Shown here: positions 8,401 to 33,845 of the stretch, one piece after another | Position numbering within the stretch: the first letter of the stretch is position 1 | How the letters are laid out: every line of letters starts with the position of its first letter | Source: Glandiceps talaboti | Lineage: Eukaryota; Hemichordata; Enteropneusta; Spengelidae | DNA length: 64,000 nucleotides | NCBI RefSeq assembly: GCF_964340395.1 | Contig: NC_135567.1 | Location: 15,567,806-15,631,805, forward strand | Direction of reading: 5' to 3' | The notes under the pieces: generated by a model | What the model was told of the DNA's origin: nothing | Database searches by the model: none | What the model saw: only the letters and a program-made list of their open reading frames with translations | Made by a program: the position numbers and the translations under genes

Positions 8401-9055
8401 CGTATGCTGTGTTGTGTCTCGGTAAGTCGGATAGATGGAAGATGCGTTACAATGTTGTAGACGTATGCTGTGCTGTGTCTCGGTAAGTGGGATAGATGGA
8501 AGATGTGTTACAATGTTGTAGATGTATGCTGTGTTGTGTCTCAGTAAGTCGGATAGATGGAAGATGCGTTACAATGTTGTAGATGTATGCTGTGTTGTGT
8601 CTCGGTAAGTCGGATAGATGGAAGATGCGTTACAATGTTGTAGATGTATGCTGTGTTGTGTCTCAGTAAGTCGGATAGATGGAAGATGCGTTACAATGTT
8701 TAATACGTCGTAGACGTATGCTGTGTTGTGTCTCAGTAAGTCGGATAGATGGAAGATGCGTTACAATGTTGTAGATGTATGCTGTGTTGTGTCTCGGTAA
8801 GTCGGATAGATGGAAGATGCGTTACAATGTTGTAGATGTATGCTGTGTTGTGTCTCGGTAAGTCGGATAGATGGAAGATGCGTTACAATGTTGTAGACGT
8901 ATGCTGTGTTGTGTCTCGGTAAGTCGGATAGATGGAAGATGCATTACAATGTTTAATATGTCATAACCGTGTATTGCGCTGTGTCTTAGTAAGTCGGATA
9001 GATGGAAGACCCGTTACAATGTTTAATACGTTGTGTCTTGGTAAGTTGGATTTAT
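5399..9055. repeat. 61/70-bp minisatellite starting inside the last codons of the HTH gene (about 55 copies)
   Basis: Two interleaved unit lengths: 70 bp (with TTTAATACGTCGTAGAC) and 61 bp (with TTGTAGAC). The phrase TGCTGTGTTGTGTC recurs at 5438 and 5508 (70 bp), and 61-bp spacing dominates from about 7,700 on. Nearly every unit contains CGGTAAGTCGGATAGATGG. The first unit overlaps the coding end, and later units of the 70-bp type keep the same codons (W K T R Y N V stop, TGG AAG ACG CGT TAC AAT GTT TAA). Open frames seen on the minus strand here come from the repeat period and are not genes. Confidence 0.95.
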
Positions 9056-13434: not shown

Positions 13435-13983
13435 TCATTTTTTCTGTTCCATTGAGGGATCTTTAACTGAAGTTTCTGAGGTGGATTTTGGCAAAGTGTG
13501 AGTAGACAATTGAGGTTCTGGTAAAGACAATTCACTATGTATATTCTTAGAGGGCTCAGTAGCTCTTGTACTGGATTGTGAAGTACTGGGTTGTGAAGTA
13601 CTGGGTTGTGATGTACTAGATTGTGATGTACTGGGTTGTGATTTACTGGGTTGTGAAGTACTAGGTTGTGATGTACTGGGTTGTGATGTACTGAGTTGTG
13701 AAGTACTGGGTTGTGAAGTACTGGATTGTGAAGTAGTGGGTTGTGATGCAGGCATTGGTTTAGTGGAGGTCAATTTGGGCCAATAGTGACTAGGGGACAG
13801 TGGTTTATATCCTAACAATTTGTGAGGTATACTATGAGAAGGTTCTGCAGTACTTGTACTAGATTTTGCTGTTCTAAAGTGTAGCTTGGATAGATTCATT
13901 GGGTTTTCTATGGGTGAATGCACTTCCTTCTTAATGCTTTTTGGTCCAAACATGGATGATGGACCTGCTGTACTTTTCATCAA
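13435..13983 (-). pseudogene. out-of-frame S/T-rich tail of gene A (TSQPS repeats)
   Basis: Open for 182 codons in a frame different from the LRR frame it overlaps at 13,931-13,983. It encodes an IKKEVHSP motif, then about twelve TSQPS/TSQSS pentapeptides, then an acidic/proline end and stop. The IKKEVHSP motif matches VKKEVHSP in the C-terminal region of gene B, so the tail was probably joined to the LRR ancestrally and a small indel near 13,970-13,995 now separates them. It could still be translated if that indel is an assembly error or if splicing or frameshifting rescues it. Low-complexity S/T-rich tail of unknown role. Confidence 0.5.
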
Positions 13984-16900
13984 TGGGTGTTTGTTGTGAA
14001 TACCATGGCATATCTCTCATCTGTTCACCTACAATACTCTTTGGTAATGTTGAACTACGGTACAACACCTCTACCTTCTGTGCTATTTCAGGGTCTGTAA
14101 TACTTTCTTGTCTCAAGTCAACAAACTTAGAAACTTTGCAATCCTGTTCAGCATGTCTTCTTTCAATTCCTTTCAATAACATTTCTATGCTAGAATCAGT
14201 TATTTTGTTGTAACTTGCATCAAAATGCGTCAGACTCCTTAATTTAATCAAAGTGGAGGCTAATATTTCAGAGTAGGCATCCCCTATGTTATTATGACTG
14301 AGGTCAAGATAAGTCAGACTACCCATGTACTCCACCCCTCTACTCAAACTCTTTACACCATAGCTTCCAATGTTATTATGACTGAGGTTAAGATAAGTCA
14401 GACTACCCATGTACTTCATCCCTCTACTCAAAGTCTCTACACCTTCATCTCCAATGTTATTATGACTGAGGTTAAGATAAGTCAGACTATACATGTACTC
14501 AATCACTCTACTCAAACTCTTTACACCTTCATCTCCAATGTTATTATGACTGAGGTCAAGATAAGTCAGACTTTTCATGTACTCCATCCCTCTACTCAAA
14601 CTCTCTACACCATACTCTCCAATGTTATTATGACTGAGGTCAAGATAAGTCAGACTTTTCATGTACCTAATCCACCTACTCAAACTCTCTACACCATACT
14701 CTCCAATGTTATTATGACTGAGGTCAAGATAAGTCAGACTTTTCATGTACTCCATCCCTCTACTCAAACTCTCTACACCATACTCTCCAATGTTATTATG
14801 ACTGAGGTTAAGATAAGTCAGACTTTTCATGTACTCCATCCCTCTACTCAAACTCTCTACACCATACTCTCCAATGTTATTATGACTGAGGTTAAGATAA
14901 GTCAGACTTTTCATGTACTCCATCCCTCTACTCAAAATCATTACACCATAGTCTCCAATGTTATTATGACTGAGGTCAAGATAAGTCAGACTTCTCATGT
15001 ACTCAATCCCTCTACTCAAACTCTCTACACCTTCATCTCCAATGTTATTATGACTGAGGTTAAGATAAGTCAGACTACCCATGTACTTCATCCCTCTACT
15101 CAAACTCTCTACACCTTCATCTCCAATGTTATTATGACTGAGGTTAAGATAAGTCAGACTTTTCATGTACTCCATCCCTCTACTCAAACTCTCTACACCA
15201 TACACTCCAATGTTATTATGACTGAGGTCAAGATAACTCAGACTTCTCATGTACTCAATCCCTCTACTCAAACTCTTTACACCATAGTCTCCAATGTTAT
15301 TATGACTGAGGTCAAGATAAGTCAGACTACCCATGTACTCCATCACTCTACTCAAACTCTGTGCACCGTGGTATCCTAAATTATTATGACTTAAATTCAA
15401 CACCTTCAATGTAGACACATTCCTGAGACTCTGACTTAGATAACTAATTGCATCATAATTTATTACACACTTTGTGAGTGTCAATCTTTCTAAGTTTCTC
15501 AAAACTCCTAATTCTTGACAGATACACAAACACTCCTCTTCAGACAGCACTGATGCTTCAAAACCAGTAACAACAAGAAGCTGGTCAAAGATACCGATAT
15601 TATCTAACTCATTTAATGACCGATGTTTCTTACTTATCTCAGGAATTTCTGGTAAATTAAGTACACTATCTTTGACATCCTTCAATAACAGTCTACAGTG
15701 TTGTCTAATTAATTCTGTCTGCACAATACTATAGGATGCAAGACAGGGTAGTGACTTCAGAACTTTCACTAAAAGAATACAATCATCTATGTTTAAGGTA
15801 CTTTGAGTTAGACTTAAAGATGTTAAACAAGGTCTGGTTTTCTGACTGGCCATACACTCTAACATCTGATGACACACTGCCACATTCATTCCAATAAGCT
15901 TTAGTTTCCTTGGAACATCCCTACATGAAAATGATTGTAGGAACATTTGAATGTAGGAAACATCAATATCACACACAGGGTTACTAAATTTCATACAGAC
16001 TGTATCACATTTAGAAATATCTGGCTTGTCAGTATCTCCAGTACTACCTGATTTACTGTGTATGCATTTCAAGAGGGGGATTACTCTCAAAAATTTACTT
16101 GCTACAACAAATTCCTGTGAATTAGAAATGTCAAAATCAACATTATCTAATCCTTCCAGTCCAGTTTTCAATTTCAAGTCACTGGAAAGCAGTGACACAA
16201 TTTCATCTGAATATAACAATATGTTTCCAATGATAGATGTATTCTGTACAATAACACTCAAAGCATGCAAAGTTTGGTTTGAAATTACAGTAACACTTGA
16301 CAAATCTAAGGTTTGTTGTCCAAGTACACTTTCAATACTCTCTGCGAAAAGAGTAGGATGCTGACATTCAAACAAACAATGCCCTAAATTTACCAGATCA
16401 GAATTCATGACAAATCTTTCTTGTTTTATGGCTTTAGAAATTGCCACTATAACAATATCAGCTTTGTCTCCTAATATACCTGACATGTATGACAAGAGAC
16501 ATGACAACTTCTTTTCACAAAGTATAAAGGGTATCTCCTGTTTCATTTCATGGAAGTTTTTGGTGGTCTTAAGTTTAGTACACAAATAACAAGCAATTAT
16601 ATATGAGTACACATACTGGTTTGAAAATTCAAACCCATGACATTTGTCAGATTTCTTCGCTAAACCAAACAAGTATTCACACATATCAGTAATTTTACTT
16701 TCAATCATCCATGATTCATACAACACACCAAGGTTATCTTCTGTAAGATTCTCATACAAACACTTTCCAACTTCCAGAAATCTATCCTGTACAACTTGCC
16801 ATACGTTCTCTACATCAAGTGTATTTTCCTTACAATACATCTCTACATGGTACTTTATGGCATACTCAGTTGCTGTTGTTAAAGTTGGAGGCAAAGTATA

Positions 16901-17109
16901 ACAATTCTGACACCAGTAAGATACAATGGCAGGAAAGAAAAACTCTTCATTTCTAACTGTATCTATTACTGGATCAAATCTAGACTCTTCAATTAAATAC
17001 TTAGCTTGAAGAAAGCTTTGTACATGGTTCAGTACGTATCTCTCCCATTTATCATACTGAGTAGCTCTGCATTCAGTTGATGTACTTAGACTTGAAACAG
17101 CTGACATAT
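13931..17109 (-). CDS. gene A large exon: NLR-type helical tail plus about 15 near-identical LRRs
   Basis: The acceptor TTTTTCCTACAG|AT opens the exon at 17,109. With the phase-1 donor at 24,902 the joined codon is GAT, followed by MSAVSS. Residues 1-400 have the pattern of NLR proteins after the ATPase: KWERYVLNHVQSFLQ, PAIVSYWCQN..LPPTLTTATEY (the NLR 'LLCxL..LPxTxTeLY' helix), then a winged-helix/superhelical stretch. From about residue 565 there are about 15 ribonuclease-inhibitor-type LRRs of 28 residues, consensus SLTYLDLSHNNIGxxGVESLSRGMEYMK, nearly identical at the DNA level (84-bp period). No Walker A or B motif is present. The frame ends VWTKKH-stop, earlier than the S/T tail. Likely a recognition module; immune role inferred from the architecture. 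Confidence 0.75.
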
Positions 17110-17586
17110 CTGTAGGAAAAATGAAATGAAATAAAATGTCTAAATAAATATTTAATAAAAATTTATCATAACTAAAACATGTGAAATTGTACGGTTTGTT
17201 GGAGTTATATTTAGAATGATAGTTTTTGGTACGGTTCTACACACACTGATGTTTGATAGGAACATAATACCTTTTGCTGTATGCTAAGTTTACTAATCTA
17301 AAATTACAAAACACAACATGGATATGTACATGTCAATCTGTGTGATAGCATAAACATAAAAATTTAAATATGATATAAAATGTTACATATGTACTCATAA
17401 AAATATGATATGATATGAAAAGTAATGTTTATTGCTGTGTATCATATACCCGATATCACTTCCAATGTAATTCAATAGAGCATGTGCATTGAACTCGTGC
17501 AATTTTTTTCGCATTACGCCCACTTTGCCCAAATAAAGTGAGTCACACCAATATCGAAGCTCTGTGATCTGGCTTTGAATTTCTTG
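17110..17586 (-). other. gene A last intron, LRR-proximal part
   Basis: Intronic sequence directly upstream of the LRR exon. It matches 45,304-45,790 of gene B, so it predates the duplication and the transposon insertion beside it. No coding signal. Confidence 0.6.
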
Positions 17587-18087
17587 TATTAGGCCAAATA
17601 AAAAAAGTTGTTTGGTTCCGATTACCCAACCCCACGTAATTTTTCACGGTAATCCTAAACTTTTTTTAAATATTCAGGAAAAAAATAAGAAAATCGTGAA
17701 AATTGTGAAGTCTCGCAAGAAATAGTGGATGTGGAAACTGACATCAACTTAAAAAGACAATATAATAGTGGTTTATTTACCCAATCGTATAAAATGATTA
17801 CAAAATAATGGTAACAAAAATCAAAAGAGAGAAGGGTAAATGGGGAGTCAAGAAATAGCTTACAGCTAGTCTAGCCTGATCCCCGACATTGTATATTGCG
17901 AATGAAAACAATAAGAGGGTTCAGTCATTAAGATGACTGAAAACATAACTGGGAGAAAAAAAAATCACATATACATATACATATACATATACATGTACAC
18001 AAAAAAAACAAAACAAACATTTTTACTACATGAAAAAGTCTAATACAATAAACGAAAAGTCAATACATCTGTAAGTTTACAATTTAA

Positions 18088-21033
18088 TCAACTGTACTGC
18101 TCTACTAAATATTGTTTCAGAGATTTTCTAAAAATATGTTGGGAATTTTTCGATCTGATTTGAATTGGAATATCATTCCAAATTTTTGCACCTATGAATG
18201 AAATAGCAAACTGACCAGAATTTGTTCTCGCATGGTACGGGTAAAGATTTTGACGATGGCAGAGTCTCGTGTCATATTCATGTTTTTTGTCACTAAAATA
18301 ATCGGACAAGATATGTGGTGAGTTCAAGTGAACCAGGCTGTAAATAAAAGAACCTATTAAGAGTTTGTGAAGCTTGTAAATATCTAGAATATTTAGCTGT
18401 ATAAATAAAGGAGCCGAGTGTTCCATGTGAGATTTGAACAGCATCGTGCGAACAATCATTTTTTGGGCAGTTAGAATGCAATTCAGAGATGTTGGGTAAG
18501 TACTGCCCCAAACCTCTAGGCCGTAAGAAATATGGGGAAGTATAAAGGCATTGTACAAAAGTATTAAAATACTTAGTGGTAAAATGTGTCTTAGTCTATA
18601 CAGAATTCCACATTTCTTCCTTATGAGTATATTTATTCTGTTAATATGGTCAGACCAGGTGAGGTGTTTATCTAATGAAATTCCAACAAAAGAAACAACA
18701 TCCACCTCTTTGATTTGATCTCCACGAATGACAATAGAACCAGTTACATCTATTTTTTGTTGTCGACCCCTGAAGATAATAAAATTTGTTTTATTTCTAT
18801 TTATGGTTAATTTATTGCTATCACACCAGAGTTGAACATCATGTAAATGATTTGATACTGTAGTAAGATCAATGTGATATGGATTAGAAAAAGAATGGAA
18901 AAGATTGGAATCGTCTGCGAACAGTCGAAAATCAAAGAATGTTGAAGACTTTTGTATATCATTTATATAGATAAGAAATAAAGTGGGACCCAGAACTGAG
19001 CCTTGAGGTACACCATGACAAATTGTGGATTTTACTGACGAATGGCCATTTGAGTGGACGAACTGAGAGCGGTCTGTGAGATAACTTTTTATCCATTCTT
19101 GACAAGGACCCCTAAACCCATAATGTTCAAGTTTGGATAACAAAATTGGATGATTGATTGTGTCGAAAGCTTTGCTGAAATCAATAAATACTCCTATAGT
19201 TGGACTTCCCTTGTCGATTTCTCGCAAAATATGATTTACTATATTGATCAGGGTCAGGTTGGTACTATGTTTTTTTCTAAAGCCGTACTGATGCTTGTAC
19301 AAAATATCGAATTTTTCAAGGTAGGAAGTAATTTGTTTATTTATAGCTTTTTCAAAAACCTTGCTAAACAAGGGCAGAATGGATATTGGCCTATAGTTTC
19401 CAACTGTTTCTCTATCTCCTTTTTTGAAAATAGGCGTAACTTTAGCAATTTTTAGGGCTGTGGGGAATACACCAGTTGAAAATGAAATATTTATAATGTG
19501 GGCCAATGGCTTTGATATGATATCAGCTGCGTCGATAAGGAGCCTTGGGGGTAGATTATCCCATCCGCTAGCTTTTTTGCAATCTAAATTGGCTAAAAGT
19601 CTGGTTACCTCAAAGACAGTAACTGGTTGAAGAAAAAAGGAGTGTGGTAAAGATAAATCAAGATAATCCCTATAATCACAAGATGCATGTGGAATATTGT
19701 TTGCCAGCTTTTCACCAACTTGAACAAAAAAATCATTGAAACTCTGAACTACCTCAGCTGGGTCTGACACAACACGTCCAGTACCATTTACATCAATATT
19801 TAAATTTTCTGGCAACTTATCAGGACCGTATTTCTTACCCAAAAGATCATTCACAACATTCCAAATTTTGTTACTCTGGTTTACATTGAATAAATTTAAA
19901 TAGTAATTCTTTTTAGCACATCTCAGAACACTGGTAAGTATATTTCTATAAGACTTGTAATGAGAAACTGCACTTGACTCATGTTGACTAGTAATAACTT
20001 TTGCATATAATGTGTGCTTAGTGTTAATAGATTTCTTAATTGCTTTAGTTATCCAAGGATTTTTATTTCGCTTAGACTTGAGAGTCTTGACCTTCATGGG
20101 TGCATGAAGATCGCACACCTGGATGAATAAGTCGTGAAATGTGTCAAAGGCAGTATCTGCATTACTATTGTTATTTAAAATATTCCAATCCACCTTACGT
20201 AAGTCAGAAACAAAATTATCCTTATTATAACACTTGAAGTCTCTTACAAGTACAGACCTTAAAATTGGTAAATGTATATTAAAATTATCAAAAATGGAGA
20301 AGACCGGGAAGTGATCAGAGATATCAGCAATGATTGTACCTGTGTCAATCTGACAGGAGCATATATTTGTATAAATGTGGTCAATTGTTGATTTCGAGGT
20401 ATTTGTGATTCTGGTTGGCACTGAAATTAACTGTTCAAGATGAAGACACTGCATTCTAGATACGAAATTTCTGGCATTATTATCTGGCTTGGCAACATCG
20501 ATATTGAAATCTCCCATGAGAATACAATATTTCTTATCAAGTTTTACATTACAAAGAACATCAAAAAGACTATTTTCGAACTCTGAAATATTTGTACCCG
20601 GTTTACGGTATAAAACACCAACGACAATGCGATTTTTACTACCACAAATTTCAAACCATAAGGATTCTGTGTGCATAACATTATATTGCAAAATCTTATA
20701 GTTGAGGGAGGAGTGGATGTATGCACCAACTCCACCACCTCGGCCAAAGTTTCTCGACACTAGCTCGAGAGAATAGTTTGGTAAATTAAGTAGACTGGAA
20801 TTGTCAATTTTCCAAGTTTCGGAAATACCGATAACTTTGAAAGAGTTTTCCATACAATGGTTATACAAAAGAGCAACATCGTCTATGCTATTAGAAAGTG
20901 AGCGAGCTTTGCAATGTGACACAGAGAAAGAGGTTTTGAGATTTGAATAGAAATTCTGGTGAAATATTGTCGGTTCTAATGAATGGTTATTGATAACAAA
21001 AAGATTATCTATATAGGTTTGGTCACTGTTCAT
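18088..21033 (-). CDS. LINE ORF2: endonuclease-reverse transcriptase
   Basis: 981 residues. The N-terminal third is an AP-like endonuclease (EEP fold): SETW, GGVGAYIH, GVLYRKPG, MGDFNID and the final SDHFPV motif are all visible. The centre is a reverse transcriptase: PIFKKGD, NYRPISILP, HQYGFRKKHST, FIDFSKAFDTI, GVPQGSVLGP and the catalytic FADDS (most relatives have FADDT). A thumb region follows, with LSFNKWKC-type features replaced by divergent sequence. This is the enzyme that nicks the target and copies the element RNA. Clade by motif pattern: CR1/L2 group. The length is full for the family and no stop interrupts it, so the copy may be recently active. Confidence 0.9.
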   Translation of the reverse strand: MNSDQTYIDNLFVINNHSLEPTIFHQNFYSNLKTSFSVSHCKARSLSNSIDDVALLYNHCMENSFKVIGISETWKIDNSSLLNLPNYSLELVSRNFGRGGGVGAYIHSSLNYKILQYNVMHTESLWFEICGSKNRIVVGVLYRKPGTNISEFENSLFDVLCNVKLDKKYCILMGDFNIDVAKPDNNARNFVSRMQCLHLEQLISVPTRITNTSKSTIDHIYTNICSCQIDTGTIIADISDHFPVFSIFDNFNIHLPILRSVLVRDFKCYNKDNFVSDLRKVDWNILNNNSNADTAFDTFHDLFIQVCDLHAPMKVKTLKSKRNKNPWITKAIKKSINTKHTLYAKVITSQHESSAVSHYKSYRNILTSVLRCAKKNYYLNLFNVNQSNKIWNVVNDLLGKKYGPDKLPENLNIDVNGTGRVVSDPAEVVQSFNDFFVQVGEKLANNIPHASCDYRDYLDLSLPHSFFLQPVTVFEVTRLLANLDCKKASGWDNLPPRLLIDAADIISKPLAHIINISFSTGVFPTALKIAKVTPIFKKGDRETVGNYRPISILPLFSKVFEKAINKQITSYLEKFDILYKHQYGFRKKHSTNLTLINIVNHILREIDKGSPTIGVFIDFSKAFDTINHPILLSKLEHYGFRGPCQEWIKSYLTDRSQFVHSNGHSSVKSTICHGVPQGSVLGPTLFLIYINDIQKSSTFFDFRLFADDSNLFHSFSNPYHIDLTTVSNHLHDVQLWCDSNKLTINRNKTNFIIFRGRQQKIDVTGSIVIRGDQIKEVDVVSFVGISLDKHLTWSDHINRINILIRKKCGILYRLRHILPLSILILLYNAFILPHISYGLEVWGSTYPTSLNCILTAQKMIVRTMLFKSHMEHSAPLFIQLNILDIYKLHKLLIGSFIYSLVHLNSPHILSDYFSDKKHEYDTRLCHRQNLYPYHARTNSGQFAISFIGAKIWNDIPIQIRSKNSQHIFRKSLKQYLVEQYS

Positions 21034-21065
21034 AAGAAAAATGTTACATTTGCCTCAATAACTAA

Positions 21066-21950
21066 TTAAGTACAATACTTAGCAATATCAGCTTCATTTG
21101 AGATTGTAATAGATCGAGCTTGCTGGTCTCTCTTGATGTAAATTCGGCCATTGTGAGTCCACAGATATCGATATCCTGACTTCTTCCTTGCATTGTTGAC
21201 TTTACCTTGAAGTTGTCTTGCAGCAGGACATAAATTCTCATTTATATAGATATTGTTCTTTGTAGAGTAGCCAAGATTTTCCGTCGATATGTCTTTTATC
21301 TTGCGGCGCTGGTCATAGATAGCGTTCCGACTTCTTCGGTTGGTGAATGCTACAATTATCGGTCTATGTCGGGCAGTGTGAGGTAGAGTAGGGCTTTGGA
21401 CTTTGCCGATGCGATGCGTAACATCGATGTCATCTATACTGATTCCAGGATTGATATTTCGTAAAACAGATAATGTTATGTCATCTGTATTTTCATTTAC
21501 GCGCTCAGGTATTCCACTAATTTCCAAGTTATTTCGGCGTGAATACTGGTTTTGTTGATTTGCATCTATTTCCAAGGTAGTGATACGATTACGTAACTCG
21601 GTATTTGTTTTTTCGAGATTTTTGTTCGTTTCCTCAAGTTCAGAAATGCGATAAAGCAGATTTTCGAACTTTTCGTTAATGAAATCCATTGATGTCGTCA
21701 AGGTTGTTTGGCCATGTTTCAGACTAGAGATCTCTTGACTGATGTATTCCAGTTTTTCCATTACTAATACCAATGTAACGTCACCTTTGTTACCTGTTGA
21801 CACGTCATCGTCAGCCGCCATGTTAGCATTACTTTCTTGGAGTTGTAGGGTTGTAGATCTTTTCATGTTGCAGGAGCGGCATAACATCAAATCATCGCCA
21901 CTCGAGACTACTGCTCTCTTGGTCTTGCAATGAGAACACTTTGAAGGCAT
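21066..21950 (-). CDS. LINE ORF1: zinc-finger/coiled-coil RNA-binding protein
   Basis: 294 residues. The N-terminus has two CxxC pairs (CSHCKTKRA ... CRSCNMKR), a small zinc-binding module. Residues about 65-135 form a coiled coil (ISELEETNKNLEKTN). A transposase_22-like part follows: NNLEISGIPE, DDIDVTHRIG, RPIIVAFTNRRSRNAIY, IYINENLCP. ORF1 proteins of this type bind the element RNA and act as nucleic-acid chaperones. It ends 32 bp before ORF2, the usual tight spacing in such elements. Starts at MPSKCSHC, the first Met before the zinc motif. Confidence 0.85.
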   Translation of the reverse strand: MPSKCSHCKTKRAVVSSGDDLMLCRSCNMKRSTTLQLQESNANMAADDDVSTGNKGDVTLVLVMEKLEYISQEISSLKHGQTTLTTSMDFINEKFENLLYRISELEETNKNLEKTNTELRNRITTLEIDANQQNQYSRRNNLEISGIPERVNENTDDITLSVLRNINPGISIDDIDVTHRIGKVQSPTLPHTARHRPIIVAFTNRRSRNAIYDQRRKIKDISTENLGYSTKNNIYINENLCPAARQLQGKVNNARKKSGYRYLWTHNGRIYIKRDQQARSITISNEADIAKYCT

Positions 21951-22276
21951 GACAATGGTCCATTAATCGCAAAAATAGGCAGTATTTAGACAAACTTTTG
22001 GGGAGCCATGTACATAGTGATGTTGTTCCTTGAATTATGTGGGGTTATTCGTATATGAAACTGTTCTTCCAATTTGTAATGGCTGTACATCTGAATGGAA
22101 GAAACTAATAACACTGAGACCATATGGAAAAGAACAGAAAAACATAACTATCTGAACTAGACACTCGCATGTGAAAAAAAAATGAATTAAAAAAAAAAAA
22201 ATAAAATAAAAAATCTACCTAACCCACCTATTCTAAAATTGAATGTAACCAGAACCACACAATTTGTTATTAGGCC

Positions 22277-22615
22277 TAACCACATTTATGTTTTTGCATA
22301 TGAATAATGTTTCACTATCAATTCATGTGGTTATTTGATTCAAATTATGTTTCTGTGCCAATGCTACATAGGGTATATGATAATATTTTAAGAGTAAAGT
22401 ATATGAAGAGAAGAGAATTAAGATAGAAGTAAAAGGGAAACGTATAGTGTTGAGGAATAATATTTCCAAGAACAACGGTTTTCCTAGCAGGTAAAGATCT
22501 TTGATGTACTTAGGTTACAAAATTGTCAACCTTAGTATTATGCCCTAATAAATATTAAGCATACAGGATTTGTGGACCTCAATACTATTGCTCAACAAGT
22601 CATTGAGAATGACAT
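22277..22615 (-). other. gene A last intron, conserved with gene B
   Basis: Matches about 45,795-46,020 (CACT(A/G)TCAATTCATGTGGTTAT and GCTACATAGGGTATATGATAA). No coding signal. Confidence 0.6.
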
Positions 22616-24819
22616 AGTCCCCGCTATGATTGGGTTTGAAGGAATTATCACTACTCTGATCACGCAACAACACTTGTGAACCTAAATCAAACAGACTTAG
22701 ATATGTTGTGTCTGCTTGTTGGACATGGAACATGCCTACAACAATAAAGGATTGGTCGGGTATGGGGATCATATCACGATGAAAATGGATATGCACATGT
22801 ATGTCATAGAACACTGTCCTAATACCAACTTTGAATGTGATCTGTTCAAGCATGTCTGAGTTATGGCTTTGGACATTGAAAAATCGCAAACAAAATGGCT
22901 GCCAGGCGGCCATAGTTCAGTTCAGTTTGTAGGTCCAGCCGTTATATGGCGGCTCAGGAGGTACAATAAAATTGAACTTCGACCTGTAAACAGGCTAAAA
23001 AGAAAAAGAAAAATAGAAAAGAGTCTTGACCTGTGGATAGAATTCACTGTCAGTTATGGTTCGATAGATGCTAAAAGTCTATTCCTAGTGGTGTGAAGGT
23101 CAAAACAGTATTGTCTGCAGATCCGTTCTAATTGTAATAGGACATCAGATGGTATGTTGTTTGTCTCCTCCAGTAAGGTAAGATCGAGCACAAGTTGAGT
23201 GATATTTTCTGTCATCCTGGTTGTCATAATATCTGAGGTGTGTTCACCAGCCGCTGCTTTCATGTTTCTGATAAATTTATTTCTGAGTTTACTAAATAGC
23301 TGACAGCTGTTAATGAAGTGTTCACGAGTTTCTGGAGCTTTGTGACAAAATATGCAAATAGGGTTAATTGTATATTGGTTGAATTTGGCTTTGTTTGCTT
23401 GTAGTCTATAGTTACCAATAACTAGTCTATTTTTGATGATTACACGTTGTGATTCTCTTATGTTGTTGGAGATACTGGACAATATCAGATGGGGACCGTG
23501 TTTGATTCTGTTTGATGTATTGAGATAACGTAGACTCGTTTTTTTTGGATGCTGATGCTTCTAATTGTTCTTGCCAGTAGCTGTTAACTTTTTTGTTAAT
23601 GAGTAGTTTCCATTGTTTGATTTGGGGTGGGTATGAGAATAAGTGATAAATGTCCTGTAGTTGGTATTTGTGAAGTATTGACTTGAGATCGCTAAACCAG
23701 CTATTGCTTTTCAGATCTTTAAGGGCAATTTGTCTTTCACCAATACGGAACTCAGGTGAGTCCTTATTTTGTAGTATTCTTCCAAGGAGTGAGAGTTTCT
23801 TGATGTCAACTTCAGCTTCAATTGTACGTAGTCCAGATAGAAGATAAACAGCTTCGTCAGCGGTGTTTTCAGCTAGGGATAGAATTTGCTTCAATATTGG
23901 ATCGTATTACAACAACAATGAATATGCACATGTATGTCATAGAACACTGTCCTAATACCAACTTTGAATGAGATCTGTTCAAGCATGTCTGAGTTATGGC
24001 TTTGGACATGGAAAATTCACAAACAAAATGGCTGCCAGGCAGCCATATTGGATCGTATCACGACGACAATGGATATGCACATGTATGTCATAGAACACTG
24101 TCCTAATACCAACTTTGAATGAGATCTGTTCAAGCATGTCTGAGTTATATGGCTTTGGACATAGAAAAATTGCAAACAAAATGGCTGCCAGGCGGCCATA
24201 TTGGATCGTATCACAACAACAATGAATTTGCACATGTATGTCATAGAACACTGTCCTAATACCAACTTTGAATGAGATCTGTTCAAGCATGTCTGAGTTA
24301 TGGCTTTGGATCGACATGGAAAATTCGCAAACAAAATGGCTGCCAGGCAGCCATATTGGATCGTATCACAATGAAAATGGATATGCACATGTATGTCATA
24401 GACCACTGTCCTAATACCAACTTTGAATGAGATCTGTTCAAGCATGTCTGAGTTATGGCTTTGGATCGACATGGAAAATTCGCAAACAAAATGGCTGCCA
24501 GGCAGCCATATTGGATCGTATCATGACAACAATGAATATGCACATATATGCCATAGAACACTGTCCTAATACCAATTTTGAATGAGATCTGTTCAAGCAT
24601 GTCTGAGTTATGGCTTTAGACAGGGAAAATTTGCAAACAAAATGGCTGCTAGGCGGCCATATTGGATCGTATCATGAAACAAATTGACGTGCATATGTAT
24701 GCCATTGTATGTTGCCCCTGTACCAAGTTTGAAAAAAATCAGTCTAGGCATCTCCAAGAAACGGCTGCGGACAGACGGACGGACGCACGGACAGACGGAA
24801 CCCAATCCGGCGGGGACTA
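22616..24819. mobile_element. dispersed element with about 150-bp internal tandem repeats (copy in A)
   Basis: Bounded by TAGTCCCCGC (22,616) and its perfect reverse complement GCGGGGACTA (24,810-24,819). Inside are about six head-to-tail copies of a 150-bp unit containing ATGGCTGCCAGGCAGCCATA, CACTGTCCTAATACCAA and GTTCAAGCATGTCTGAG. The right end carries a (GGAC)n-like tract. A related copy lies at 52,348-53,450. This copy is interrupted by a LINE fragment at about 22,930-23,894. Short open frames here (MAAWQPFC, FKVGIRTVFYDIHVHI) come from the repeat unit. Confidence 0.7.
22930..23894 (-). pseudogene. 5'-truncated non-LTR retrotransposon fragment (C-terminal RT region)
   Basis: Two overlapping open stretches on the minus strand (23,894-23,427 and 23,482-23,054) form one protein tail broken by a frameshift near 23,450-23,480. 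The second carries a zf-RVT-like CCHC motif (CIFCHKAPETREHFINSC), typical of the end of LINE ORF2 proteins. The polymerase core is absent. The 3' end runs to a short TGAAC-type repeat near 22,935. It interrupts the 150-bp repeat unit at GGCCATA/ATTGGATCG, so it inserted after that array formed. Confidence 0.65.
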
Positions 24820-24901
24820 ATAAGTCAGGCCCTTTCTCTACACAAGCTTGCTTTAAATAACCCATATCTGGCCAAATATCTTAGTGTTAACTGTAACTTA
24901 C

Positions 24902-25330
24902 CATGCATAATTTCTTTCACAATGTCAAACTCTTTTCTGTCAATCTTTAATTTAATTCTAGTAGTACATCCAGATTTCTCAGCAAGAGCTCTCATCTCAG
25001 CTGTTACTAGGATACCAGTCAAAGACTCCTCCAATTCACCAGATTCATATTTCTGCCAGAAATACTGCATATCTTCTTCTGAAAGGAAACTCAGAATAAA
25101 ACGTAAAGACCCCGAGTCAGTTCTTTCTAATACGGCTTTGTAAGAATTATAGGTTTCATCTAACTCTTGAATTAATGCTTGTTCCTTTCCCTCTAGGAGA
25201 AGCTTGGTTCTTCGCTCATAATGTTCCTTGGCACTCTTTTTAAGTTCTTCTCTTGCTTCAATTTTCAATCTCCATTCCCATAGCTTCAGTTCCCTTTCCT
25301 TCATCTCAAATTCAGTATTTATAACCACAG
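24902..25330 (-). CDS. gene A TRADD-N-like exon (coiled coil plus TRADD-N fold)
   Basis: Acceptor TTATTAATCCAG|CT, donor ATGCATG|GTAAGT, 429 nt, phase 1 on both sides. Residues 5-72 are charged helices (coiled coil). From residue 73: GSLRFILSFLSEEDMQYFW, QKYESGELEESLTG, LVTAEMRALAE, RIKLKIDRKEFDIVKEI. This spacing of a hydrophobic strand, 'YxSGxLxxxL' helix, 'VTxEmr' and final strand plus helix matches what I know of the TRADD N-terminal domain, including that of TRADD itself (LIVQLRF..FLRAYREGALRAAL). TRADD-N domains act as adaptors in death and immune signalling. The exon splices in frame to the LRR exon. The domain name is by pattern recognition; a profile search would settle it. Confidence 0.65.
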
Positions 25331-26146
25331 CTGGATTAATAAAATAAAAATACCTTGACTTGTCAGGAAAACCATACCTTGATAATTTACACAAACATTC
25401 TCACACTATATTCTCTCACTGCATAACATGACGGATTCTTTGCATTAGCAGTTCAAGTGCAACTTTCCTGACTTTGTGAGCCAGCAAGTAGGGTGTCATA
25501 AAAATTGATTGCATCTCTAAAGCTATTTGCAATATCACTGATAATGGGTCAGTAAAACTGATAACAACTGATATGACATTAGGGGCTTCACACTTGATAT
25601 TGAGTTTAGCTTTGCCTGATGTGTTATGTAATAGTGCTTTATCACATTTGTAAATATTACCAACAAACATTATTCAGTGATAAGAAAGATAAGAAACCCC
25701 ACTTCCTAGCTAATGGCTTGATTCTGTAATGATCACTCATAGAATCATCATGTCATGTCTTACTCTAAACATCTTAAGAACGTATCCACCGCATGATTTA
25801 AGCCTAGTTTGCTCAATAAATTTGGAATTATTGGTTTTTGGCCTAAAAGACAAATTTGTAGCCCAACTTTGCATATCACTGATGGGATCATCATGTCATG
25901 AATACTTCTTGATCAAACTATACCCCTTAGAAGTTTACCACCAACTTTCAGCCCGATATGCCCAGTACTTTTGGAGTTTATGTTTGTTGACCCAAAACCC
26001 ACATCTCTGATGCGATCATTTTCATTTGAACAATTTATCGGCTACATATGCTCTAAGTAATATCACATAGCACACAGAACTATTAGCTCAGTTGTGTTAA
26101 CAACACTCAGACTATTCTGGACTACTGCATTGAGATTATTACTTAC
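25331..26146 (-). other. gene A intron with an 84-codon open stretch (25,670-25,416)
   Basis: An open frame with ISVVISFTDPLSVILQIALEM lies in this intron but has no counterpart in gene B and no clear splice sites. I do not recognise it; it may be a relic exon or chance. The rest is unique AT-rich intron. Confidence 0.25.
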
Positions 26147-26236
26147 TTGGTGACAGTTTGCTCGTATCAACTGCATTTCCTAAATGGCTTATACCTAACA
26201 CCATGTTGCGGGTTCCAATGATAGGAGACATTTGAC
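26147..26236 (-). CDS. gene A 90-nt linker exon
   Basis: Acceptor CTCAAATAG|GT and donor TCACCAA|GTAAGT, phase 1 on both sides, 30 residues ending DTSKLSP. The paralogous exon at 46,929-46,840 has the same length, splice sites and the ending DTSRLSP, which supports its reality. Joined to the next exon the codon is ACT, giving SP-T-VV. No domain; flexible S/T/G-rich spacer before the coiled coil. Confidence 0.6.
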
Positions 26237-27630
26237 CTATTTGAGAACAAAGTATGGATATGACAAATTATTGATTACTGTATGAATTTGAAAACTTTTT
26301 TGGTTTTGTTACATGTATCTATGGACATAACATTTTACCCATTATCAATGTTAATTACAAAATTCACTATAGAAATCCCATCCCGTACATCTTGGCCAAA
26401 TAATCCAATGTTTTCCCCAAAAGTTCAGTGTGAAATCAACAAACCTGGCAAGAGTTCGTTCTGTAACAAAATAGCAGTTCCAAATCGAACAGTGTTTCCA
26501 TTTTACTCATTCGTAGTTCTGTTATTTTTTATTATTATTATTAAAACTTTATTTCGAGAAAGAAAAGAATGCAAATATGCTCACAAACATCCCATAGATA
26601 AAAACAAGTCAATGAACAATTTCTATATGGAGACCTGCTTTTCTGTATGCGGACACTTTCTTTGTGTAAAAGTGTCCTGATTAACTGAAAAAAGTGTCTG
26701 CTAATGAAATTGAGAGCACAGTTGAAACAATGGGGAAGAGTCGGAAAGGAGTATAACTATCGTTTATGGATGATAATTAAAATACTATTAAAATTACTTG
26801 ATTAATGTATAATTCATTCTTTAAATTTGAAAGAAAAGGAAAGTTGATAGCTGGGTGAGTGATTTAAAAGTAGGTGCAAAAGTGTGTCTCACTGAGTGTA
26901 ATACATGAAATATTAACAATGTAGGTAAATAGCCTACACAAACAAGGTCAGACTACAGATATGAGTTAAAAAGTCTTTCGGCGGGAAAATTCATTCACCA
27001 CAGAGGTCAACACAGAGGTTATGAGATTTAGTCAATGCAATTTTTACATTGAACAGAGAATATGACAAACATTGTTTGCGGTGTATGCAGCAGTTAAAGA
27101 TTAGTCTAGGGGAAAATGTATGAGAAATGCTATGCGGATTCTCTCTTGGGTACAAAATAGCTGCCGTCCTCAGACATCATACTGGCCGTACCGCTTGGCC
27201 AATTTAAGTCTGTGGATGGTATCTATAAGTATGCCATACAAGTACACAAAGTCATGGATCCTGGATGAAAACAAAGATAATATCTAATTAAATATATCAG
27301 TACATGACTTATTCATTATAACTACTTGTTTCAATCATAAACCAATAAATGCCTTCTTTTCATGATAATACAATCAACCTGAAGCAGTGGTAGATTTTCA
27401 TCTTGTCATTGTTCTGATTTGTCACCATGTATGAATTAACCATCACTAGATATTGTTTCAGAAGACACCATCATGACTGAAAGATGTTCACAGACAACAT
27501 TTTTTATAAAAATATGATCTAAAACTTCTTATTTGAGATATTTTAGATATTGCTGTATACATGACATGTATATATTGTCTACACCTTAATTTCTAGATGA
27601 TAGATATAGTCAAGCAGATGAGTTTCTTAC
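26237..27630 (-). other. gene A intron with a dead exon (27,476-27,402) and a relic acceptor near 27,256
   Basis: 27,476-27,402 resembles the 84-nt S/T exons (TCTTTCAG|TCATGATGG, MVSSETISSDG) but has in-frame stops and its donor GT is changed to AT. Near 27,256 (CATCCAG|GATCCATGAC) the acceptor and first bases of the 138-nt exon remain but the exon body is gone. Elsewhere unique intron. Confidence 0.55.
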
Positions 27631-27714
27631 CTTGTTGTCTTTGTTCTGGTTTGTCACCTTGAGTGGCACTATCATTACCAGTCACATGACTTGTTTCAGA
27701 TGAAACCATGGTTA
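27631..27714 (-). CDS. gene A 84-nt S/T-rich exon
   Basis: Acceptor TTTCTTTCAG|TA, donor CAACAAG|GTAAGA, 28 residues: TMVSSETSHVTGNDSATQG, then DKPEQRQQG. Phase 1 on both sides, so it can be skipped or repeated without breaking the frame. Matches 48,649-48,566 of gene B. Forms part of the linker between the GT and TRADD-N parts. Confidence 0.6.
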
Positions 27715-28225
27715 CTGAAAGAAACAGAGAAAACATTCTAATTAGATGAACATAAACCACAACTTAAAACCCAATACATGTGTATGACGTCAACTCATGA
27801 CACAATCAAACAGATCTAGTTTCTCACCTTTTCATATCTGTACTGATATGTTCTCATCAGGGGTTACCAGTGTGTCTTGTAAGCTAATTTGATGTACTAG
27901 TAAAACACAAATTTCTTGTGACGCACAATAATTTAGTATTTTCCTATCCCTTACAATGCAGTGTGACAAGGTGATCCACATTTTATCATTTTGTCCTCCA
28001 TGGGCTCCCAACAACAACATATTTTAACCTATGTATGTAAGAAGGGTGATGCTCAGTTTGACCTTGCTGAACAATGCAGATTTTCACTGGGTACACCAGT
28101 TTCCTCCTGCTTCCTCAACACTAGAGCACTCAGGCACTGCTCTTGTGGTGACCATTCACCAAATTTCCGAATTTATTTGGACTTGATAAAGAATATCATT
28201 ATTATTATTACTGATAGTTTCTCAC

Positions 28226-28363
28226 CTTGTTGTCTTTGTTCTGACTTTTCACTATGTAAGACTCCACCGTCACTGGGTACTTGACTTGTTTCAGATGAAA
28301 CCTTAGTGGTCATTCCATCACTTGTTACATGCTCACTTGCTGTTGTAGATGAAGTCATCATTT
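28226..28363 (-). CDS. gene A 138-nt S/T-rich exon
   Basis: 46 residues (TSSTTASEHVTSDG ... SEKSEQRQQG), donor CAACAAG|GTGAG, phase 1. Same length as gene B exon 48,200-48,063. The B-type acceptor (TTCTTCCAG|GA) is deleted here; TTTAATTAG|AA at the deletion edge keeps both length and phase but has a weak pyrimidine tract, so splicing may be poor. Confidence 0.5.
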
Positions 28364-28671
28364 CTAATTAAATATCTAAGTACATGATTTATTCATTATA
28401 ACTACTTGTTTCAATCATTAACCTGAAGCACTGGTAGATTCTCATCTTGTCATTGTTCTGATTTGTCACCATGTATAAATTAACAATCACATGATACTGT
28501 TTCAGAAGACACCATATTAATGAAAGATGTTCACAGACAACATTTTAGATAAAATTATGATCTAAAACTTCTTATTTGAGATATTTTAGATATTGCTGAA
28601 TACATGACATGTATATATTGTCTACACCTTAATTTGAAAATGATTGACAGTCAAGTAGATGAGTTTCTTAC
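28364..28671 (-). other. gene A intron with a second dead exon (28,519-28,446)
   Basis: Same dead-exon family as 27,476-27,402: in-frame stops, donor GT changed to AT and here also the acceptor AG changed to AT. Confidence 0.5.
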
Positions 28672-28728
28672 CTTGTTGTCTTTGTTCATTACCAGTCACA
28701 TGACATGTTTCAGATGAAACCATGGTTA
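28672..28728 (-). CDS. gene A 57-nt S/T-rich exon
   Basis: Acceptor TTTCTTTCAG|TA, donor CAACAAG|GTAAGA, 19 residues: TMVSSETCHVTGNEQRQQG. It equals the 84-nt exon minus an internal 27 bp (nine codons), so the frame is kept. It is the first exon after the GT exon in A; the donor at 30,077 leaves A, giving codon ATA. Confidence 0.55.
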
Positions 28729-29096
28729 CTGAAAGAAACAGAGAAAACATTCTAATCAGATTAACATAAACTACAACTTAAAACCCAATACATGTATATG
28801 ACTTCACTTCAAGGCACAATCAAACAGATCTAGTTTCTCACCTTTTCATATCTGTTCTGATATGTCATCATCAGAGGGTACCCATTATGTCTTTTTAATT
28901 TGATATACTAGTAAAACACTACCAGTAATTTCTTGTGACACACTAAAATCTTGTAATTCCCTATCCCTTACAATGCTGTCACAAGATGAGCCACATTTTA
29001 TCATTTTCAGAAAGTAGTAGCATAAGGATGGTGACCAATAGTCCTATATTCCTGAACTGAAAACAGGGTTCCTCTATTGTAAATATGTGTCTTTAA

Positions 29097-29431
29097 AGGT
29101 GATTCAAAATGCTAACATTCACTATCGCTAATTTGCTAGACGACATGTTTGTGAAATGCATTCTGGTTTTAAAACTTTTCAAAAGCGTCTGCAAACACCT
29201 TAAAATGACCTTTTTTCAGTCACTTCCCTTCGGAAGTCATAAAATCCTGTGGTCTAGGTGGGACCGGAAATACCCGAAAACTCTCGAAGTAAATCCGAAG
29301 GGAAGTGACTGTAAAAAGGTCATTTTAAGGTGTTTGCAGATGCTTTTGAAAAGTTTTAAAACCAGAATGCATTTCACAAACATGTCGTCTAGCAAATTAG
29401 CGATAGTGAATGTGAGCATTTTGAATCACCT
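29097..29431. mobile_element. 335-bp foldback MITE with TTAA target duplication
   Basis: Almost all of the element is two arms of about 139 bp in inverted orientation (AGGTGATTCAAAATGCT at the left, its reverse complement at the right) around a spacer of about 57 bp. TTAA flanks both ends (29,093-29,096 and 29,432-29,435). The paralogous intron of gene B (about 49,898) has a single TTAA and no element. TTAA targeting points to piggyBac- or Kolobok-like transposase use. It lies in the first coding intron of gene A and would form a long RNA hairpin. Confidence 0.85.
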
Positions 29432-29459
29432 TTAAAATATTTTTATGTCTGTAAATCTT

Positions 29460-29620
29460 CCATCCTTTAAATCATCACATAATCAGCAGTAGCCTTAAAA
29501 GGACTACCAGCTGCAAATTATGGTTGCCCCAGGACAAGAATTGGTAGTCTGTGGACACAGGACTACTGTTAATTTTGAGCCCTAAGTATACTTAGTAACA
29601 ATATGTTTAGTGTATATACA
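29460..29620. repeat. dispersed repeat shared with 49,930-50,080
   Basis: Contains AGGACAAGAATTGGTAGTCT and GGACACAGGACTACTGTTAA. The paralogue is similar, so insertion predates the gene duplication. Confidence 0.5.
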
Positions 29621-29624
29621 ACAC

Positions 29625-29831
29625 TTAGCACAGCATGTTGGAACAGCAGAGATTTGGATTACATTTCTGATGATTTGATAAGAACAGTTTTATGGCCTCT
29701 TTGCATGTAAATGAATTGCCAGGGGAACTTCTAATTTGTTGGTGAGGTGAACTTTACGTAAAGAGGCCATACAACTGATGATGGAATGTATTACTTGTCT
29801 CTTTGCTGTTCCAACATGCTGAGCCTATAGT
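29625..29831. mobile_element. foldback element, shared by both paralogues
   Basis: AGCACAGCATGTTGGAACAG at the left and CTGTTCCAACATGCTGAGCC at the right are inverted, with an inner inverted pair ATGGCCTCTTTGCA/GTAAAGAGGCCAT. The copy in gene B lies at about 50,096-50,292. Present in both, hence older than the TTAA element. Confidence 0.7.
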
Positions 29832-29976
29832 AAAGTTATTAATCTAATTCATTTGTTTACTTTCTCTGTTTGTAACAGGTTCTGTCCGTCAATGATCTGA
29901 TGTCGGCAGTTATAGTTCAGCCTTGATTATGTCAACCACACATCAGATGATTTTGTCCGTACAATAGTGCTACTGG

Positions 29977-30060
29977 GTATGTCCCATATATCAATTATAC
30001 AGGGGTATGAGTATCTCATACGGTACCCCTGTATAATATGGGTCATACCTGGTCATGTAA
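29977..30060 (-). other. intron hairpin next to the GT-exon donor
   Basis: TACAGGGGTA and TACCCCTGTA with flanking ATGTCCCATAT/ATATGGG arms form a near-complete hairpin about 16 nt inside the intron, just after the 5' splice site at 30,077. The arrangement is kept in gene B at about 50,447-50,520. Confidence 0.6.
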
Positions 30061-30076
30061 GATAAATTCTACTTAC

Positions 30077-31272
30077 TCGATGGTTTTGTTGATGTTGGTT
30101 TCCCAAAATGAGATAGGAATGTCTCATGCGTCTGTTCAATGTCTTTGTTGTCATGGTAACATTCCTTTACTGCCTTTGCATTTTTAGCTGCAGCTTTTGG
30201 ATTAAGGAGTATCGATTTCAACTTTTTATACAAGTCATCTTTTTCACCAGGGTCATATACAAAGTAATCAGCATAGAGTTCAAATTGTGTTGTGTAGAAT
30301 TCACCAACTGCTGTTGATTTTGGCACCAAAGTTGGTAGTCCTGAGGCAATGGCATCCAATCCTTCCATCCCTATTGACTCGTCAGGTGGTATTATACAGA
30401 CATAACTTTGAAGTAAATCTGTGCAAATATCATCTTGACAGTCATATGGTGGGACAATGATTGGTTTTAAATAGGAAGTAGTCATATTGTTTTTAAGAAA
30501 TGTTCGAGTGGTTACAGAATCTCTGCAAGTATGATTTCGGATTAACAAGTCTGGTATCTTTCGAGCAACGTCATGAAATGTATCTGCTACTTTACTTACA
30601 GCTTCCAGTGGTATTTTGCTAGCTTTGTCCAAATTTGGGTTGGTCAATTTCATCAACGTCTGTTTTTCCACAACCTCTGGTTTAATAACATCAACCTGTA
30701 AGTCAAAGAAACATTCATCTGGTCTTGGCAGGTACAGTTCATGTTTTATGGGACGGTTTGCAGCCTGGTAGATGGTGCAGAAACGTGCAAACACCTTTGG
30801 TCCAACAGAGAATACTGCATAGGCAAGTTCTGCAAATTTTACACACCTCTTTGATTCATCTACAGATGATGGAACAGTGTGGTTTATAAGCACAACTTTT
30901 GCATCAGGAAACAAACGTCTCTTAATAGCAAAGGCAGCTGCACAAGTCATAGGAAAATGGCCGACTATGGTTTCAACATTCTGTAGATTTGACAGTGTTG
31001 TAAAATAAGTATCTGGCTGGCCTAACCATTTACAGCTAGGTACTTCATCTTGTACATCATGTGCCAAGATGTCATCAAAACAGGGAAGAGTTAGTTTTAC
31101 GTTATTTGTCTCTGCATCCTCTGCATGTTTAGCTTTTAACACAACACAGTGTGTTTCCTGTGGTGTACATCTAGCTACACTGGTGGCAAGTTGACAGTTA
31201 ACTACAGATACAGGATCACCAGCTCTATTCCATTCTTCAGCCACAAAAAGGGTTGACATTTTGTTAGATTAT
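30077..31272 (-). CDS. gene A GT-B glycosyltransferase-like exon
   Basis: Acceptor CTTTTGTGCAG|AT, start ATG at 31,259, donor CATCGA|GTAAGT, phase 1; 394 residues. The N-terminal half is Rossmann-like: VAEEWN, NVETIVGHFPMTCAAAF, DAKVVLINHTVP, then YAVFSVGPKVFARF. The C-terminal half has the nucleotide-sugar site of GT4-type enzymes, ESIGMEGLDAIASGLPTLVP followed by STAVGEF, with the EGxxAxAxGxP pattern kept. The N-terminal Gly-Gly loop expected after VAEEW is AGDP here, so catalysis is doubtful. No signal peptide, so probably cytosolic. Joined in frame to S/T exons, TRADD-N and LRR. If the intron is retained the frame stops two codons later (SK-stop), giving a GT-only form. About 97% identical to the gene B exon. 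Confidence 0.7.
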
Positions 31273-33286: not shown

Positions 33287-33631
33287 TACTCAGTATTTTT
33301 GTAGTACAAGTTGGTTTCACAATATGAGATTGGAACATCTTGTGAATCTGTTCAAATCTTGGTTGTCATGGTAACATTCCTTTACTGCCTTTCATTTCCA
33401 GCTGCAGCGTCTGGATGAAGGAGAATTGCTTTCAACTTGGTATCACTTTCACCGGGGCAATAGTATTGACTGGAAAATGAGTTGTGTAGAATTCACCAAC
33501 TGGTGTTGATTTTGGCACCAAAGTTGGTAGTCCTGACGCAATGGCATCAACTCCTTCCATCCCTATTGACTCATCAGGAGGTAGAATAGAAACATAACTT
33601 TGACGTAAATCAGTGCAAATATCATCTTGAA
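33287..33631 (-). pseudogene. truncated third copy of the GT C-terminal region
   Basis: Matches the last third of the GT exons: DDICTDLRQSY, ESIGMEGVDAIASGLPTLVP, VGEFYTT. It then loses the segment coding YADYFVYDPGEKDDLYKKL and carries frameshifts. The donor (GA|GTAAGT) at the exon end is still present. The 5' two-thirds are missing; homology begins at TCAAGATGATATTTGC. It sits in the 5' intron of gene A, same strand, so a relic of a further tandem duplication. Confidence 0.8.
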
Positions 33632-33682
33632 AGTACAACTTAAATTTATAATGAAATAAAAACAAAAAGTTTATAATTACTC

Positions 33683-33845
33683 TCTGTATGTATTTCATTG
33701 TAACAGAGACTGAGTCTGTAAGTATCTAAACTGATGTAAACAAAATATTTAGTCTGTATGTATTTCATTGTAACAGAGACTGAGTCTGTAAGTATCTAAA
33801 CTGATGTAAACAAAATATTTAGTCTGTATGTATTTCATTGTAACA
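33683..33845. repeat. 70-bp tandem repeat, 2.3 copies
   Basis: TCTGTATGTATTTCATTG recurs at 33,683, 33,753 and 33,823; the first two units are almost identical, which implies recent duplication. Confidence 0.9.

Follow-up and report, generated by a model that had tools for sequence, protein, structure and literature searches.

Predicted tandem GT4-TRADD-N-LRR genes with an NLR helical remnant and loss of conserved GT4 residues in Glandiceps talaboti

The locus described here raises the question whether a glycosyltransferase-like domain, a TRADD-N-like domain and the LRR part of an NLR, all encoded on one strand, belong to a single gene, and how the product of such a gene could act without a NACHT ATPase. 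It is located in a stretch of 64,000 nt of the G. talaboti genome (contig NC_135567.1, positions 15,567,806 to 15,631,805), which is referred to as the window below.

Exon structure of gene A

Gene A consists in our model of six minus-strand exons between 31,259 and 13,931. Joined, they have a length of 5,022 nt in frame 0 and form one open frame of 1,673 codons with a single stop at its end, and each internal junction has an AG before and a GT after it. The first exon (30,077-31,259) encodes a GT4-conflict domain with GT-B fold (PF20706, E 8.1e-27) and ends with a phase-1 donor after 30,077. Three predicted linker exons with AG/GT bounds follow without loss of the frame, two S/T exons (28,672-28,728 and 27,631-27,714) and a third one at 26,147-26,236. 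The TRADD-N-like domain, preceded by an N-terminal charged stretch, is encoded at 24,902-25,330, and the last exon (13,931-17,109) contains an NLR winged-helix/HD2 remnant (approximately residues 44-293) together with the LRRs. Thus, a single polypeptide with the order GT4, TRADD-N, LRR is predicted. The small linker exons are the weakest part of this model, and between gene A and its neighbour gene B a single match of 88.5% covers the second S/T exon as well as the introns around it, the figure being one for exon and intron together.

An earlier note on this DNA, made from the letters only, had proposed these exon positions on one strand with the junction codons ATA, ACT and GAT, and a GT-B module and TRADD-N fused with LRRs. 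The positions were borne out by the splice bounds and the open joined frame, the codons are as stated, and the fusion holds as a gene model, although this domain order was already in print (PMC8195603). Its span of 13,931-31,272 needs correction at one end: the exons stand, but translation would start with the ATG at 31,259. An in-frame TAA is present within bases 31,272-31,260, which therefore would be 5’-UTR.

Assignment to TRADD-N would call for a match to PF09034 or PF20694 above the cut-off. The gene A domain matches PF09034 with E 0.0015-0.0025 and 18-19 bits (18.3 in one scan) against a cut-off of 25, and is accordingly called TRADD-N-like. The genome contains 14 TRADD-N matches; at E <=0.1, six of them match TRADD_N and five TRADD-like_N, the best with 6.2e-5. 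Eleven of the 14 have a GT4 domain upstream of them in the same orientation, ten within 9 kb and one at 45 kb. A search of PDB sequences with the TRADD-N profile gave no credible relative, the best match (E 0.013) being a short helix of RASSF5.

The helical-LRR exon and the missing ATPase

The LRRs of gene A were recognized clearly (LRR_6, E 1.6e-89) and include 13 tandem units of 28 residues. A hypervariable LRR face was considered and rejected, since each of the first 12 positions, with the motif LxxLxLSHNN, shows at most two different residues among the 13 units; the array thus looks homogenised. The helical block in front of the LRRs aligns over 244 columns with the NACHT exons of the same genome, immediately behind the ATPase (hhalign E 1.5e-12, probability 97.7). 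The score of 97.3, obtained with a helical profile that in effect consists of two sequences, compares with 24.9 for the best of 100 column shuffles and 17.0 for the reversed profile. Pfam NLRC4_HD2 is weak in this block (best E 0.018, in three of eight members, below the cut-off), and among PDB sequences the helical profile found no credible relative (best E 0.51, antibody chains). Gene A thus has a winged-helix/HD2 region followed by LRRs, as judged by hhalign with controls and with Pfam below its cut-off, and no NACHT ATPase was found in it.

The ATPase was searched for in several ways. Pfam NACHT had no match in the exons scanned, and a NACHT-core profile built from the genome's own NLR exons found none in the window at E <=10 in frames of at least 25 aa, in a run without a separate positive control. 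In the genome as a whole, none of 80 NACHT matches (107 of 113 candidates scored) is located less than 1.9 Mb from any of the nine helical exons. We also considered whether the 7.8-kb intron between the TRADD-N and LRR exons of gene A, that is, between 24,902 and 17,109, hides a NACHT exon. This intron is occupied by tandem repeats and LINE-like ORFs, among them one of 988 aa on the minus strand (18,088-21,054; from the ORF list), which we take to be a LINE from its reverse-transcriptase-like appearance. In the seven other copies in which it was measured, out of eight, the intron has a length of 339-855 bp, and the shortest copy cannot hold a NACHT domain there because 339 bp are too few. Together with the negative NACHT-core search in the window this led us to reject the hidden exon, which the earlier note had named as a refutation of its reading. 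The homology of the helical block to the region behind the ATPase supports loss of the ATPase, and the proposal of an NLR-like gene without it is upheld.

The GT4-conflict domain and the other copies

The GT4-conflict assignment is based on PF20706 scores of 94.6 and 100.2 bits against a cut-off of 26. A profile built from 26 rows, of which 24 are paralogues, matches the structures 2jjm, 3mbo, 5d00, 2iv7 and 3c48, with the EX7E region aligned in 2jjm and 3mbo, the two matches listed; in a sequence search the gene A domain alone had no PDB match. The GG loop, the GR...KG motif and EX7E are residues which we assume to form the sugar-donor site. Gene A belongs to a group of 12 GT4 domains with support of 100/99, in which the GG loop is absent from all members while 25 of 28 other copies of the genome have it. 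The Arg of GR is likewise found in 0/12 versus 30/30 other copies, and the second Glu of EX7E in 3/12 versus 27/30; outside the clade, three of 30 copies are eroded as well. By these three residues the clade does not resemble an active GT4 glycosyltransferase. Since key active-site residues are lost, the GT4 of gene A is probably a scaffold or decoy whose enzyme function is gone.

Alternatively, the domain could have an altered donor site and still function as a glycosyltransferase or sugar-nucleotide sensor, being then an effector which modifies proteins of the invader or the host. Such a role was proposed for GT4 conflict domains (PMC8195603, section 15). Eight of the 12 members retain the first Glu of EX7E and four have Lys in the KG column, so that some ligand binding could remain, and the domain is constrained (Ka/Ks 0.30 for the pair with the C8 copy, in a range of 0.30-0.57 over nine GT4 pairs). 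However, loss of the GG loop and Arg throughout the clade, when most other copies retain them, makes an active enzyme or sensor unlikely, and it also speaks against the former suggestion that the state of the receptor depends on a nucleotide-sugar.

Gene A belongs to a cluster of seven neighbouring copies. Its closest neighbour is gene B (51,729-41,152), and the ~120 kb that follow contain another five. Gene B is also encoded within the window, on the same strand, and repeats the order of gene A with identical phases and splice bounds. Its exons encode the GT4-conflict domain (50,547-51,729; PF20706 E 1.7e-28, 97% identical to A), two predicted S/T linkers (48,566-48,649 and 48,063-48,200, the latter being the one for which the acceptor is missing by reading at the matching place of gene A), a predicted linker corresponding to the third one of gene A (46,840-46,929), the TRADD-N-like domain (46,097-46,525; PF09034 E 0.021) and the NLR remnant with LRRs (41,152-45,303; ORFs 45,358-41,723 and 41,787-41,152). 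Between genes A and B we found a partial GT4 C-terminal fragment on the minus strand (33,432-33,725) with two TGA inside the match; similar fragments also adjoin copies C and D.

The order GT4, TRADD-N, helical-LRR and the single strand are kept in 7/7 cluster copies, each with a GT donor after the GT4 exon. Because of this recurrence, we rejected the view of the GT4 exon as an unrelated neighbouring gene. The C8 copy has the same order on one strand with 56% (GT4) and 54% (TRADD-N) identity, while for the C15 helical exon the TRADD-N, GT4, NACHT and helical profiles had no match in 3,001 bases (82 bases of overlap, the rest upstream).

The locus could also give separate products: retention of the first coding intron would yield a GT4-only protein, and a different start one with TRADD-N and LRRs. 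In all seven cluster copies a stop codon starts at the sixth base past the GT4 exon, so that without splicing this exon encodes a complete GT4 protein, and an in-frame ATG is located directly behind the LRR-exon acceptor in gene A and the six others. However, the C8 and C4:13.3M copies lack this stop within the bases listed for them, and the ATG is absent in the C8 copy. Moreover, acceptor and donor of the TRADD-N exon are kept in 8/8 copies and the LRR-exon acceptor in all copies that reach it, seven of the eight, that of gene A being seen too. We therefore regard separate products as quite improbable. That former GT4-NACHT-LRR genes lost their catalytic parts and are turning into pseudogenes is very unlikely: there is a frame break at ~41.75 kb in the LRR exon of gene B, a LINE in the gene A intron, one S/T acceptor lost in gene A by reading and Ka/Ks of up to 0.79 in recent pairs, but nine helical-LRR exons have open frames with lengths of 905-2,023 aa, all 15 pairs compared show Ka/Ks below 1 and splice sites are kept.

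Proposed function and comparison with known systems

With moderate confidence, we propose from the sequence data that these tandem genes encode intracellular, immune-type receptors with the architecture GT4-TRADD-N-LRR, in which both classical engines, the NACHT ATPase and the GT4 donor site, are gone. The ATPase would be missing from a former NLR exon of which the winged-helix/HD2 region and the LRRs were left, and the N-terminal GT4 has lost residues of its sugar-donor site. Binding of a ligand or of a partner receptor may be the task of the LRRs, the helical block may hold the molecule closed, and TRADD-N could then cluster the protein or recruit a death/NF-kB-type partner. The pseudo-GT4 would serve as a binding surface or bait instead of a sugar transferase, and the receptor could be a partner or brake of GT4 paralogues with intact active-site residues. 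Altogether, the product may act as a nucleotide-independent scaffold.

A bolder, rather doubtful version is that an NLR had its ATPase cut out and a TRADD-N adaptor put in its place, the dead GT4 being a built-in bait for invader factors which attack active GT4 defence proteins. Plant NLRs carry integrated decoys, and such a bait receptor would be their animal counterpart. The ATP switch is regarded as central to NLRs, and the proposed receptor family would provide a concrete example from animals of its absence from a scaffold that is otherwise retained and has been duplicated. The family further suggests that the TRADD-N-linked GT4, a published predicted effector, does not work as an enzyme in this lineage.

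Several known systems resemble gene A in part. The NACHT-LRR proteins of the same genome share the helical block with it and differ by their P-loop ATPase. The five structures matched by the paralogue profile, of which 2jjm is presumably BshA and 3c48 MshA, are GT4-type glycosyltransferases, whereas GG, Arg and the second Glu are missing from the copies in the window. In Acropora, proteins of glycosyl transferase group 1 carry NACHT and LRR or, alternatively, TPR/ankyrin repeats; they also join a glycosyltransferase to repeats and show clustered expansion (PMC4083563, PMC12314368). The coral LRR versions often keep a central NACHT there, in contrast to gene A, where TRADD-N takes this place.

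Among open-licence PMC papers we found no report that the GT4-TRADD-N-LRR architecture includes a dead GT4 or an NLR remnant, and the matches listed for dead glycosyltransferases were antibiotic enzymes and unrelated papers. The closest known system remains the GT4-TRADD-N-LRR proteins published in 2021 (eLife) for cephalochordates, hemichordates and cnidarians (PMC8195603). These proteins likewise have GT4 before TRADD-N and LRRs after it, a lineage-specific expansion and an association with retrotransposons, while the NLR helical remnant and the loss of active GT4 residues seen here are not described in the passages of the article covered. The domain combination itself is thus known, and its occurrence with an NLR remnant and an eroded GT4 may be new.

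Gene anatomy and the family in the genome

Six joined minus-strand exons of gene A (window 31,259-13,931) form a single frame of 1,673 codons with AG/GT at the internal junctions. Their order is a GT4-conflict domain (GT4), three linkers, a TRADD-N-like domain (TRADD-N) and an exon with an NLR remnant and LRRs. The joins proposed in the earlier note were correct; the start codon lies at 31259. Pfam matched GT4 (PF20706), TRADD_N weakly and LRR_6 strongly; for NACHT there was no Pfam match in gene A. The second copy, gene B (window 51,729-41,152), has the same exon kinds, and a frame break is present in its LRR exon near 41.75 kb. We are highly confident of this anatomy of the candidate receptor gene.

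The genome (590 Mb, 47 contigs) was searched with its own TRADD-N exon, GT4 exon and helical block, the NLR winged-helix/HD2-like region before the LRRs, resulting in 14 matches (all 77 candidates scored), at least 104 matches (104 of 145 scored) and nine matches (all 16 scored), respectively. The PF20706 profile yielded at least 57 copies (57 of 155 candidates scored); since part of these candidates was scored, the family counts are lower bounds. The genome contains a large GT4-conflict family. The window covers C20:15,567,806-15,631,805 (plus strand). Seven units (five minus-strand, two plus-strand) lie at C20:15.58-15.74 Mb on the contig of gene A, all in the order GT4, TRADD-N, helical-LRR. 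An eighth on contig C8 (identity 56% in GT4 and 54% in TRADD-N) has a GT4-to-TRADD-N gap of 45 kb. A same-strand GT4 is located upstream of 11 of the 14 TRADD-N matches, in 10 cases less than 9 kb away, and downstream of two; for the match at C20:18.84 Mb no GT4 is listed within 250 kb.

The reverse order, TRADD-N before GT4, was seen at C20:20007864-20009783 and C20:20058096-20060215. A ninth helical-LRR exon (C15:20886403-20887581, 53% identical) is preceded by 2.9 kb that contain neither a TRADD-N nor a GT4 match, and a same-strand GT4 lies approximately 11 kb upstream. Contig C40 carries COX1 every 15,435 bp, as in a mitochondrial genome concatemer. In a COX1 stretch of 1,341 bases, AAA, AGA and AGG are absent among the 447 codons and ATA occurs four times, three times at sites which we take to be isoleucine in most animals. 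Passages of PMC2697986 describe ATA for Ile as common to echinoderms and hemichordates, and the hemichordate Balanoglossus carnosus as lacking AAA. The NLR content and exon structure mark the genome as that of an animal, and the COX1 codons suggest a hemichordate.

The eroded GT4 domain and the NLR remnant

The GT4 alignment comprised 12 clade rows (A, B and L057-L066, of which L066 on contig C1 has no nearby TRADD-N match) and 30 others (L009-L038), the best-scoring 30 of 57 PF20706 matches and therefore biased to family-typical copies. In a midpoint-rooted tree of 40 rows, from which L032 and L034 (broken or partial) were left out, the clade rows group together with support 100/99. None of the 12 retains the GG loop (25 of the 28 others with letters there do) or the Arg of GR (30/30 others). 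The Lys of KG, where the alignment is locally uncertain, is kept in 4/12 versus 24/30, and the first and second Glu of EX7E in 8/12 versus 24/30 and 3/12 versus 27/30. Among the others, L036-L038 have five of six positions changed and the Arg alone retained. They represent a second GT4-conflict group with altered active-site residues, outside the TRADD-N clade (contig C4, 11.7-12.4 Mb). From solved GT4 enzymes, we presume that the scored residues form the sugar-donor site. With gene A as reference, the remaining six cluster copies have GT4 Ka/Ks values of 0.45-0.57, and three copies at greater distance have 0.30-0.47; being below 1, these values make the domain look constrained despite its damaged donor site. 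For the helical block Ka/Ks is 0.36-0.79 (six pairs). Judged from its residues, GT4 is probably catalytically dead.

With a shallow query profile (2/8 sequences left after redundancy filtering), the helical block (residues 44-293) aligned to eight NACHT exons (L001-L008; L005 has only 453 aa) over 244 columns (hhalign probability 97.7, E 1.5e-12, score 97.3), beginning directly after their Pfam NACHT segment. Control scores were 24.9 (best of 100 column shuffles), 17.0 (reversed), 17.6 (GT4) and 11.8 (TRADD-N). The alignment supports a loss of the NACHT ATPase from this gene. The first 43 residues of the LRR exon aligned with low confidence to the NACHT core end and HD1. In Pfam, NLRC4_HD2 matched three of eight block members (best E 0.018), and a PDB profile search with the block gave chance matches only. 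The TRADD-N/LRR intron measures 793, 664, 848, 826, 855, 339 and 633 bp in seven of the eight copies; 339 bp is too short for a NACHT domain, because NACHT has 167 positions. In gene A this intron is 7.8 kb long and reaches past the fetched locus. It contains a minus-strand LINE-like ORF pair, which helps to explain this length: window 18088-21054 (988 aa, reverse-transcriptase-like by eye) and, before it, 21066-21962 (298 aa).

Mosaic divergence and repeats

Comparing A with B gave a Ks of 0.022 for GT4. The TRADD-N exon reached 1.39 over its first 66 codons and 0.144 over its remainder, and the LRR exon 0.089 over its first 380 codons and 0.194 over the following 180. Divergence that differs this much along a single pair of genes is indicative of gene conversion or unequal exchange. 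Tandem arrays of ~151-155 bp in the TRADD-N/LRR intron of gene A (window 23894-24674) and upstream of gene B (52500-53297) share 93% identity over 901 bp and might help unequal exchange. Downstream of gene A, long tandem arrays with 99-bp and 61-bp units occupy window 1341-4877 and 5499-8953.

The nine helical exons lie within open frames that span 905-2,023 aa, and 13 central LRR units of gene A are almost identical, so the repeats may turn over faster in number than in sequence. Broken C-terminal GT4 fragments (56-57% identity to the GT4 of gene A) were found at window 33432-33725 (match C20:15601105-15601437), C20:15655680 and C20:15674739. Since units A, C and D, three of the seven, each have such a fragment ~2 kb upstream, the duplicated unit was probably larger than the gene.

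Proposed mechanism and known architectures

The anatomy, the lack of a NACHT match, the GT4 erosion and Ka/Ks below 1 are directly supported. It is conceivable that LRR binding would release a closed helical block, that TRADD-N would then cluster or recruit partners, and that the pseudo-GT4 could serve as a surface or bait; in its details this scaffold mechanism is tentative and somewhat doubtful.

We found no mention of the NLR remnant or the clade-wide loss of GT4 residues in passages of PMC8195603, PMC4083563 and PMC12314368. Parts of PMC8195603 place GT4 before TRADD-N, with LRRs behind, in cephalochordates, hemichordates and cnidarians and propose GT4 as an effector; according to parts of PMC4083563 and PMC12314368, coral proteins combine a glycosyl transferase group 1 domain with NACHT and LRRs. 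Thus, the domain order GT4-TRADD-N-LRR is already known.
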